This document shows positions 40,737-43,646 of a stretch of 64,000 nucleotides of DNA, in pieces (positions within the stretch are counted from its first letter, which is position 1; every line of letters begins with the position of its first letter). Below the pieces are notes generated by a model, which saw only the letters and a program-made list of their open reading frames with translations, was not told the DNA's origin and made no database searches. The position numbers and the translations under genes were made by a program. The DNA comes from Aestuariispira insulae (GTDB lineage Bacteria > Pseudomonadota > Alphaproteobacteria > UBA8366 > Aestuariispiraceae). The stretch lies in NCBI RefSeq assembly GCF_003385955.1, contig NZ_QRDW01000001.1, positions 1,059,854 through 1,123,853 on the forward strand, read 5' to 3'.

Positions 40737-41531
40737 ATGGCTGAATTCCGACTGCCCGCAAATTCCAAAATCCGTGAGGGCAAAAAATGGCCCAAAGCGG
40801 AGGGCAAGAACGTTAAAACCTTCAAGATCTACCGCTGGAGCCCGGATTCCGGGGAAACCCCGCAGGTGGATACCTATGAGATCAACCTGGACGAATGCGG
40901 TCCGATGGTGCTGGATGCGCTGATCAAGATCAAAAACGAGATTGATCCCACCCTCACCTTCCGCCGGTCCTGCCGCGAAGGGATCTGCGGATCCTGCGCC
41001 ATGAATATCGGCGACGGCAAAAAGGGCGGCACCAACACGCTCGCCTGCACCAAATATATATCCGACATGGGCAGCGATGTTGTGATCAACCCACTGCCCC
41101 ACATGGAAGTGGTGAAGGATCTGGTCCCGGATTTGAACAAGGCTTATGCCCAGCTGGCCTCGATCGAACCCTGGATGAAAACCCAGACCCCGCCGCCGCC
41201 GGATCAGGAACGCCTGCAATCGCCGGAGGAACGCAAAAAGCTGGATGGGCTTTATGAATGCATCCTGTGCTTCAGCTGCTCCACATCCTGCCCCAGCTAT
41301 TGGTGGAACGGTGACCGGTATCTCGGCCCGGCCGTCCTGCTGCAGGCTTACCGCTGGATCGCGGACAGTCGCGACGAATATACCGGTGAGCGCCTGGATA
41401 ATCTGGAAGATCCGTTCCGGCTGTATCGTTGCCATACAATCATGAACTGCTCCAACACCTGCCCGAAAGGCCTGAACCCGGCCAAGGCGATTGCGGAGAT
41501 CAAGAAACTGATGATTGAACGCCAGGGATAA
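40737..41531 (+). CDS. sdhB: Succinate dehydrogenase iron-sulfur subunit
   Basis: Electron-transfer subunit of 264 residues. Clusters: [2Fe-2S] [12 protein letters not shown] with a later Cys in NTLAC; [4Fe-4S] [12 protein letters not shown]; [3Fe-4S] [14 protein letters not shown]. The start is ATG 40737 after AAGGAC; the frame to 40671 overlaps the end of sdhA in another register. Last gene of the operon. Confidence 0.97.
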
Positions 41532-41564
41532 CTCGCACTTTTTCCGGCGGGAATATGATCAAAA

Positions 41565-41598
41565 AAGGGGTGGAGCCGTCGGCTTCACCTTTTTTTTT
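41565..41598 (+). terminator. Rho-independent terminator of the sdh operon
   Basis: GGTGGAGCC (41569-41577) and GGCTTCACC (41581-41589) pair with one mismatch around GTC, followed by nine T (41590-41598). Confidence 0.92.
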
Positions 41599-41626
41599 GA
41601 AAGATTCCAAAGAAAAGCCCTAAGCC

Positions 41627-41641
41627 TTAACCGCCAGTTAA
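41627..41641. promoter_or_regulatory. Perfect CtrA motif TTAA-N7-TTAA
   Basis: TTAA at 41627-41630 and TTAA at 41638-41641 flank seven bases (CCGCCAG). This is the full CtrA consensus of alphaproteobacteria. It lies 81 bp upstream of the EAL-domain gene, in range for promoter control. A GANTC site (41603-41607) is close by. No ctrA gene is in the window. Confidence 0.55.
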
Positions 41642-41722
41642 TCTCTTCATGAAATCATTTTTCCGTGAAGGGTTAAGAAGAGATCCTCCCCTATTAACAG
41701 CGGCCAGGCAGATATCACACAG

Positions 41723-43531
41723 ATGATCACCCATGACGATATATGGGAAGAGGCGCGCGTTTCAGCGCTTCATAACCTCCAGCTTCTGGATACCCCAGCA
41801 GAAGCCCGCTTTGACCGGGTCGTTCAATTGGCACGCACGATCTTCCAAGTCCCCATAGCTCTGGTATCCCTGGTTGACAGTGACCGGCAATGGTTCAAAG
41901 CCCATTGCGGGCTGGAAGCGCGGCAGACGCCCCGGAAGGTTTCCTTTTGCAATCATGCCATCAAGACCCCTTCCCAGATTTTTATCGTAGAGAATGCGTT
42001 GGAAGACCCCCGTTTCTGTGACAATCCCCTGGTCTTGGGGCCACCAGACATCCGCTTTTATGCCGGCGCTGTTCTCAGCACGATCGACGGTTTTCCCATC
42101 GGCACCCTGTGCATCATTGACACCAAACCAAGAATATTTGATGAAAATGACCAAACGAAACTGCGCGAAATGGCGGGTTTCATCAGTGCCGAATTGATCA
42201 TGACCCCAGAGACCGAAGCCGGTCGCCAGCTGGCCCGGGTCACCTCCGGCCTGGATCCGGTCACCAGCCTCTATGATTCCGACAGTTTCAAACGCCAACT
42301 GGCCAATCTGCGGGAGGTGATGGATACCAACAGCCAATTCAACCTGATTGCCATTCAATTGCCGTTCTTATTCTCACTGAAACAGCGGTTTAATGTGCAG
42401 ACGGCGGATCTGGTCTTGATCGAACTTTGTTCGCGCATCCAAAAAGAGCTTGCCGCCTATGGCTATGTTGCCGGGCGGATCGGGCCCGACACTTTGGCCT
42501 TTCTAATTTCCGGCGGCACCGCCGTGGAAGAAGGCCTGATGGACCTGATCAATGAAAAGTTGTTGGATCCCGTCTCCACATCCACCGGCCAGATAGCGCC
42601 GAAAGCCAGGGTGGAACTGTTCGAATACCACCCTTATCACCAGGATGCCAACGACCTGATGTTGATGGTCGACAAAGTCTTTTCCCAATCAGAAGAGACG
42701 TATTCCTCGCTTCCCGCTTCGCTGCAGGTCCATTCCGCGCTCAAACTGGCGCGGACCCTGGAACAGGCGATGGCTGAGGGCCAGATCAAGATGTATTACC
42801 AGCCCAAGGTCTGTATCGAGACCGACCGAGTCCGCGGTTTCGAAGCCCTGATCCGCTGGTGGGATGAGGATGGCAGCCCCATCCCGCCCCCCGCCACGAT
42901 CCAGGCGGCGGAAGATAGCGGCCTCTTGGAGGAGCTGACCCTCTGGACACTGAAGGAAACAATGGGCGCATTGCATCGGTGGGTCGAGCGCTTCTCGCCC
43001 CCTGAACCCTTTTCCGTCGCGGTCAATATTCCGCCACGCTTCATTCAATCGGAGCAGTTTGTTGATACCGCGATCGATCTTCGGGAACGTTATGAGCTTC
43101 CTTTCGGCTATCTGGAGTTTGAAATCCTGGAAAACCGCCTGATCAATGATGATCCCATCACCATCCGAAATATCGACCGGTTGGTTGAGGCCGGAATCGA
43201 CCTGGCCGTGGATGATTTCGGCACCGGTTACGGCAGCCTCACCTATCTCTCAAAACTGCCGCTCAAAACTCTTAAAATCGACCGCAGCTTCATCAAAACC
43301 CTCTCCGGGGATCCCACCTCCGATTTCCTGACCCGATCCGTGATCGGGATGGCCCTAAATGCCGATCTCAATGCTGTTGCCGAAGGGGTGGAGACGCTTG
43401 AACAACTGACCCTCCTCAAGGAAATGGGCTGTCAGATCGCCCAAGGGTTCCTTTATGCCCCGGCTGTTTCCGAAGAAGTCGCCACCACCTTCCTGGAACA
43501 TGGCATACAACCAGGCGCCGAAACGTCTTAA
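41723..43531 (+). CDS. GAF - degenerate GGDEF - EAL c-di-GMP phosphodiesterase
   Basis: 602-residue cytoplasmic signalling protein. The GAF domain (about 15-160) has VPIALVSLVDSDRQWFKAHCGL and VSFCNHAI. A GGDEF-type domain (about 175-330) has GPDTLAFL in place of the GGDEF loop, so cyclase activity is not expected. The EAL domain (about 345-595) has GFEALIRW, VNIPPRF, DDFGTGYGSLTYL, LKIDRSFI and AEGVET, the residues expected for c-di-GMP hydrolysis. Predicted role: GAF-gated phosphodiesterase controlling motility/biofilm. A CtrA motif upstream suggests cell-cycle control. Confidence 0.88.
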   Translation: MITHDDIWEEARVSALHNLQLLDTPAEARFDRVVQLARTIFQVPIALVSLVDSDRQWFKAHCGLEARQTPRKVSFCNHAIKTPSQIFIVENALEDPRFCDNPLVLGPPDIRFYAGAVLSTIDGFPIGTLCIIDTKPRIFDENDQTKLREMAGFISAELIMTPETEAGRQLARVTSGLDPVTSLYDSDSFKRQLANLREVMDTNSQFNLIAIQLPFLFSLKQRFNVQTADLVLIELCSRIQKELAAYGYVAGRIGPDTLAFLISGGTAVEEGLMDLINEKLLDPVSTSTGQIAPKARVELFEYHPYHQDANDLMLMVDKVFSQSEETYSSLPASLQVHSALKLARTLEQAMAEGQIKMYYQPKVCIETDRVRGFEALIRWWDEDGSPIPPPATIQAAEDSGLLEELTLWTLKETMGALHRWVERFSPPEPFSVAVNIPPRFIQSEQFVDTAIDLRERYELPFGYLEFEILENRLINDDPITIRNIDRLVEAGIDLAVDDFGTGYGSLTYLSKLPLKTLKIDRSFIKTLSGDPTSDFLTRSVIGMALNADLNAVAEGVETLEQLTLLKEMGCQIAQGFLYAPAVSEEVATTFLEHGIQPGAETS

Positions 43532-43646
43532 AAAACAGCCGGATAAGATCATCCCTGCCATTTCCGTCAAGGATCGCACCGGTTTGGCTCTGTTGCCGCC
43601 GCCATGCAGCGTCTAGCATCGCCGTCCTTTTGCATCAGGGTAAATC

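Follow-up and report, generated by a model that had tools for sequence, protein, structure and literature searches.

Our analysis suggests that phosphorylated CtrA probably activates a gene for a predicted c-di-GMP phosphodiesterase from a perfect TTAA-N7-TTAA box upstream of its start codon; we infer CtrA binding, activation, the start site, and enzyme activity from the DNA sequence. The gene and its box lie in a 64-kb stretch of DNA (hereafter the window; GC content 56%) that is part of contig C1 of a 4.82-Mb genome in 49 contigs. The sequence-only reading of this region had described a perfect 4-7-4 motif 81 bp upstream of a gene for a GAF-pseudoGGDEF-EAL protein, and had proposed that CtrA controls it. 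The motif is indeed present as TTAACCGCCAGTTAA at 41627–41641, the sole one in the window. Exactly 81 bp lie between it and the ATG at 41723, and the 602-aa ORF has Pfam matches to all three domains. The features of the region are as follows.

41559–41600, + strand: terminator-like hairpin with a T-run, 3' of sdhB and 5' of the box (-22.5 kcal/mol, z -5.18 versus shuffles)
41627–41641, + strand: CtrA-type box TTAA-N7-TTAA, TTAACCGCCAGTTAA (pattern match)
41653–41658, + strand: candidate -10 hexamer AATCAT, 11 nt past the box, weak, 4/6 to TATAAT (pile-up offset)
41723–43531, + strand: GAF/degenerate GGDEF/EAL protein, 602 aa, predicted c-di-GMP phosphodiesterase (ORF, Pfam, alignment)
41801–42196, + strand: GAF domain, aa 27–158 (Pfam PF01590, E 4.9e-14)
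42251–42694, + strand: degenerate GGDEF domain, aa 177–324 (Pfam PF00990, E 9.9e-8)
42482–42496, + strand: GGDEF signature, reading GPDTL (motif position, alignment to 5m3c)
42752–43462, + strand: EAL domain, aa 344–580 (Pfam PF00563, E 1.5e-61, 208 bits, cut-off 31.3)

The sdhB gene ends at 41531. The hairpin that follows it is absent from the output of a consensus terminator scanner, probably because its stem extends into A/T pairs. The box itself is intergenic, and its target is unambiguous since no divergent gene is nearer. It can also be read as TTAAC-N5-GTTAA, an inverted repeat whose arms match perfectly across a 5-base gap. The single perfect 4-7-4 match in the window compares with an expectation of 0.25, and when the window was dinucleotide-shuffled 100 times, 24 of the shuffles held at least one such motif; within the window alone, the box is no rarer than chance.

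The motif scan that the sequence-only reading had proposed as a check, run genome-wide, found N7 sites enriched at their own spacing, in intergenic DNA, and upstream of EAL genes. There were 49 perfect N7 sites among the 149 sites with spacings of 5–9 bp. The other four spacings (5, 6, 8, and 9) had 100 sites in total or 25 each on average (21 for N6), so the N7 excess was ~2-fold (binomial p = 1.5e-4). By simple ORF calling, 43/49 N7 sites were intergenic; of the sites with control spacings on contig C1, 21/34 were (p = 0.008). We set aside the reversed pattern AATT-N7-AATT (93 matches) as a control. N7 is not enriched by that yardstick, but TTAA and AATT are different words with different frequencies, hence the other spacings were taken instead. 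Of 43 genomes of the order (the source genome included), 32 had more N7 sites than the other spacings had on average, 24 of the 43 did so with p below 0.01, and 11 had no excess. The excess was uneven, being ~10-fold in genome G023 (31/43) and 8-fold in G007 (10/15), slight at most in G004 and G013, and absent in G005 (ratio 0.74). This spread between genomes may go along with AT content or with how large the CtrA regulon is.

A CtrA orthologue is encoded at C1:370288–370965. It is 71% identical over 226 residues to a Caulobacter CtrA query, compared with only 34–36% for the next-best response regulators, and has the domains Response_reg and Trans_reg_C. A TTAA-N6-TTAA pair 51 bp upstream of the ctrA start suggests autoregulation. 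By eye, ctrA (locus L106 of genome G000) adjoins genes resembling fliI and cheR/cheB. About 6 kb from ctrA, a gene for a ChpT-like phosphotransferase (L007, G000 C1:375900–378914) has a perfect box 58 bp upstream. Since this gene carries a perfect CtrA box, the phosphorelay may control itself.

We then listed ORFs with a perfect N7 site at most 260 bp upstream. There were 52 with the focal gene excluded, of which 48 were scanned against Pfam and four under 93 aa were omitted. The scanned set included the ChpT-like phosphotransferase (PF10090), four histidine kinases (HisKA), two HAMP proteins, two PAS_5 proteins, one STAS protein, one sigma-54 activator, and three SBP_bac_3 proteins. It also held a partial-EAL protein and two GGDEF proteins in which an EAL domain follows. 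Many of the remaining ORFs were metabolic or had no family match. No flagellar structural family was matched among the 48, which counts against the CtrA reading.

To quantify the excess at EAL genes, we counted sites in 300-bp windows upstream of the 21 EAL matches in the genome, with ten other spacings (3 to 13) as controls. Distances to gene starts are approximate here because the first ATG/GTG/TTG was used as the start. A perfect N7 site was found at 4/21 EAL genes, namely the focal gene and those starting at C5:359301, C1:235152, and C7:41625. Allowing one mismatch raised this to 11/21, the four perfect ones included. The other spacings gave 0–1 perfect (mean 0.3) and 1–5 near sites (mean 3.3). 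Because the focal gene had been picked for its motif, the fair figure is the count without it: 10 of 20 EAL genes with a near site (p = 3.7e-4) and three with a perfect one (p = 0.004). For comparison, a site was present at 4/61 other genes of the window, and at 3/27 of those with an upstream gap of at least 60 bp. The targets of the C1:235152 and C7:41625 sites are unsure because a divergent gene is nearer; the C5 site has no such ambiguity. Genes with a GGDEF domain only had no significant excess (0/15 perfect; 5/15 near against an other-spacing mean of 2.7; p = 0.12).

With about half of the EAL genes behind boxes or near-boxes and no significant excess at GGDEF-only genes, CtrA might be wired one-sidedly to c-di-GMP breakdown, a generalization that we find possible but doubtful. 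If so, newly acquired EAL genes, the focal one included, would also come to lie behind boxes or near-boxes, and CtrA would act as a general switch for lowering c-di-GMP. In Caulobacter, c-di-GMP is described as pushing CckA to its phosphatase state, which turns CtrA off (PMC7200025). Should the same hold here, the one-sided wiring would close a feedback loop. A lineage with CtrA boxes at many phosphodiesterase genes and not at cyclase-only genes would lend itself to testing whether CtrA lowers c-di-GMP, and whether newly gained enzymes join the network via their promoters.

By its sequence, the focal protein has the marks of a phosphodiesterase capable of catalysis, and its GGDEF domain appears dead. 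Its best solved-structure matches were 5m3c (GGDEF-EAL), 4zmu (GAF plus part of GGDEF), and EAL domains such as 2r6o. The sequence-only reading had held that the EAL catalytic residues are kept, and an alignment with the genome's 20 other EAL matches agreed, with the expected letters at 13/13 columns examined. The residues kept include E374, R378, N435, E467, E470, D497, D498, K518, D520, E554, E557, and Q574. The examined columns were picked from EAL biochemistry as metal- and substrate-binding positions. The other 20 EAL matches divide into 15 that share this active-site set and five that differ (L229–L233). In L231–L233, the Pfam EAL match begins only at profile position 54–69, which is presumably as expected of TipF-like proteins.

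The GGDEF match was weak yet above the cut-off (32.4 bits versus 23.8). Here, too, the earlier claim of a lost GGDEF loop held: the signature reads GPDTL, and the 5m3c stretch FIDLDRFKHIND aligned to AIQLPFLFSLKQ, indicating that the catalytic stretch is replaced as well. Neither a GG[DE]EF signature nor the metal and GTP residues of a diguanylate cyclase were present in the focal protein on alignment to 5m3c. Given both changes, cyclase activity is likely lost and GTP binding probably lost too. Caulobacter PdeA is a phosphodiesterase with a degenerate GGDEF domain plus an EAL domain, in which the EAL domain is active and the GGDEF signature is changed. The focal protein resembles it in combining an EAL domain with an altered GGDEF signature, and differs in its signature of GPDTL, in the GTP-binding stretch being changed too, and in the GAF domain in front. 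Activation by GTP of the PdeA type is unlikely because that GTP-binding stretch is also changed.

We next looked for conservation of the gene and its box. No full-length orthologue of the focal protein was found among the matches listed for 58 other genomes (42 of the same order), where the best foreign match scored 174 bits versus 1356 for the focal protein itself. A pattern search of a wider contig collection, from which very near records were possibly left out, gave 12 matches, none of them a relative. The best partial matches were to the GAF domain at 53% and to GGDEF-EAL at ~30%. In the source genome, the EAL gene sits between sdhB and an FMN_bind_2 gene (41532–43646). In four relatives (L056, L063, L070, and L075), sdhB and FMN_bind_2 are separated by a gap of ~120–160 bp that holds neither an EAL gene nor a site at up to two mismatches. 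Since the two genes adjoin there, the EAL gene looks like a lineage-specific insertion. Three relatives had a longer gap (620–800 bp), with a one-mismatch site in L052 and L060 and none in L053. An FMN_bind_2 match was seen at 14 of the 110 SdhB loci listed, many of which are too short to judge.

Among eight relatives of the family, 0/75 EAL genes had a perfect site; near sites occurred at 17/75, where other spacings averaged 7.3. Non-EAL genes on the same stretches had near sites at 16/154 (other-spacing mean 7.5), placing EAL genes modestly above them (p = 0.016). These counts (0/75 perfect, 17/75 near) weaken the case for an old, conserved CtrA-EAL circuit. Of the proposed CtrA control, what stands is the CtrA orthologue, the N7 enrichment, and the EAL-gene excess; conservation lends it no support, and both the gene and the site are missing from that spot in four relatives.

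We also inspected the promoter layout downstream of N7 sites. A -10-like hexamer was defined as at least 4/6 to TATAAT, with A2 and T6. Such hexamers lay 11–12 nt after N7 sites in 15 cases, against ~2.8 expected from other offsets. Control spacings shared this bias (6/68 versus 15/106 for N7; difference p = 0.35), which rules out the pile-up as N7-specific proof. The control-spacing set is partly N6, a described variant of the CtrA site (PMC11264516). A sigma-70 promoter scan recognized no promoter in the focal upstream region. The layout is suggestive only, because control spacings are biased alike and no sigma-70 promoter was recognized. A start ~7 nt past the candidate -10 would put the start of the box near -38.

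The reading we favor is that the box at 41627–41641 is a CtrA site that replaces the -35 region, with a -10 near 41653 and transcription starting near 41665. Bound phosphorylated CtrA would recruit RNA polymerase and switch the downstream gene on, and the EAL domain of the product would lower c-di-GMP. The GAF domain might sense a ligand. The dead GGDEF domain would have no role beyond a structural or regulatory one. The outcome would mainly be motility or surface behavior rather than the cell cycle.

Alternatively, the box could be a chance TTAA pair in an AT-rich intergenic stretch, with an unrelated promoter driving the gene. The frequency of such motifs in shuffles of the window agrees with this, as does the ~2-fold N7 excess, under which chance could account for roughly half of the 49 sites, and no orthologue emerged from the 58 other genomes (among the matches listed) or the contig collection to show conservation. 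The box is, however, intergenic and at a usual distance from the gene, and the EAL class has a clear N7 excess even minus the focal gene; we regard a chance pair as unlikely. It is improbable, in our view, that the box is real but serves CtrA as a repressor site, or is read by another factor that recognizes TTAAC-N5-GTTAA, e.g. a dimeric Crp/Fnr-type regulator. Full CtrA sites are reported to repress at Caulobacter hemE Ps and ctrA P3 (PMC4287350, PMC11264516), the focal box is a perfect inverted repeat, and the Dinoroseobacter Dnr/Fnr site TTAAC-N4-GTCAA has a half-site in common with CtrA (PMC7232146). On the other hand, the focal box fits the Dinoroseobacter CtrA motif TTAAC-N5-GTTAAC except for the last base (PMC7232146), and full CtrA sites in Caulobacter are described as mostly near -35 and activating (PMC4287350).

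A further alternative leaves CtrA in control of the gene and concerns the protein, which might act mainly as a c-di-GMP-responsive trigger or partner, with hydrolysis being minor. Trigger phosphodiesterases are a described class (PMC5052742), and here a GAF and a degenerate GGDEF domain precede the EAL domain. Nevertheless, all EAL columns examined are kept, and we consider this very improbable. Activation by CtrA of a working phosphodiesterase remains our preferred reading.

In several Alphaproteobacteria, CtrA and c-di-GMP influence one another. The suggestion that CtrA control would tie c-di-GMP hydrolysis to the cell cycle found no support. In the Rhodospirillales covered by PMC8116508, a group near which the source genome may or may not fall, CtrA is tied to motility and is dispensable, its loss being harmless to growth. 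Flagellar genes are described as common CtrA targets in all studied orders (PMC8116508, PMC4046655). The terms GGDEF, EAL, and cyclic-di-GMP are absent from the main text of a comparative study of CtrA regulons (PMC2877005), and among titles and abstract openings of the open literature we found no report of a CtrA-site excess at EAL but not GGDEF genes.

In Caulobacter, TTAA-N7-TTAA lies near -35 at activated promoters, with a full site at -39 of ctrA P2 (PMC4287350, PMC11264516). The focal gene has the TTAA-N7-TTAA box upstream too, with a predicted start and, for a -10, only a weak hexamer. CtrA control of c-di-GMP genes has been published for Dinoroseobacter and Rhodobacter (PMC7232146, PMC6473078, PMC9756655). 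In Hyphomonas neptunium, CtrA is reported to regulate eight genes for predicted enzymes of c-di-GMP synthesis or breakdown, of which six are direct and two indirect targets (PMC7200025). The likeness to H. neptunium lies in c-di-GMP enzyme genes that CtrA controls there and may control here. Its targets were measured, whereas the source genome belongs to another lineage and offers motif evidence alone; it also differs in having a significant excess at EAL genes and not at GGDEF-only genes. Dinoroseobacter likewise has c-di-GMP signaling genes within its CtrA network, with the CtrA motif TTAAC-N5-GTTAAC (PMC7232146). By that account, D. shibae has only five c-di-GMP signaling genes, in contrast to the 21 EAL matches of the source genome, about half of them with N7 or near-N7 sites. 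Other Alphaproteobacteria are thus already known to place c-di-GMP enzymes under CtrA, and the focal gene would be a further sound, mostly ordinary example.
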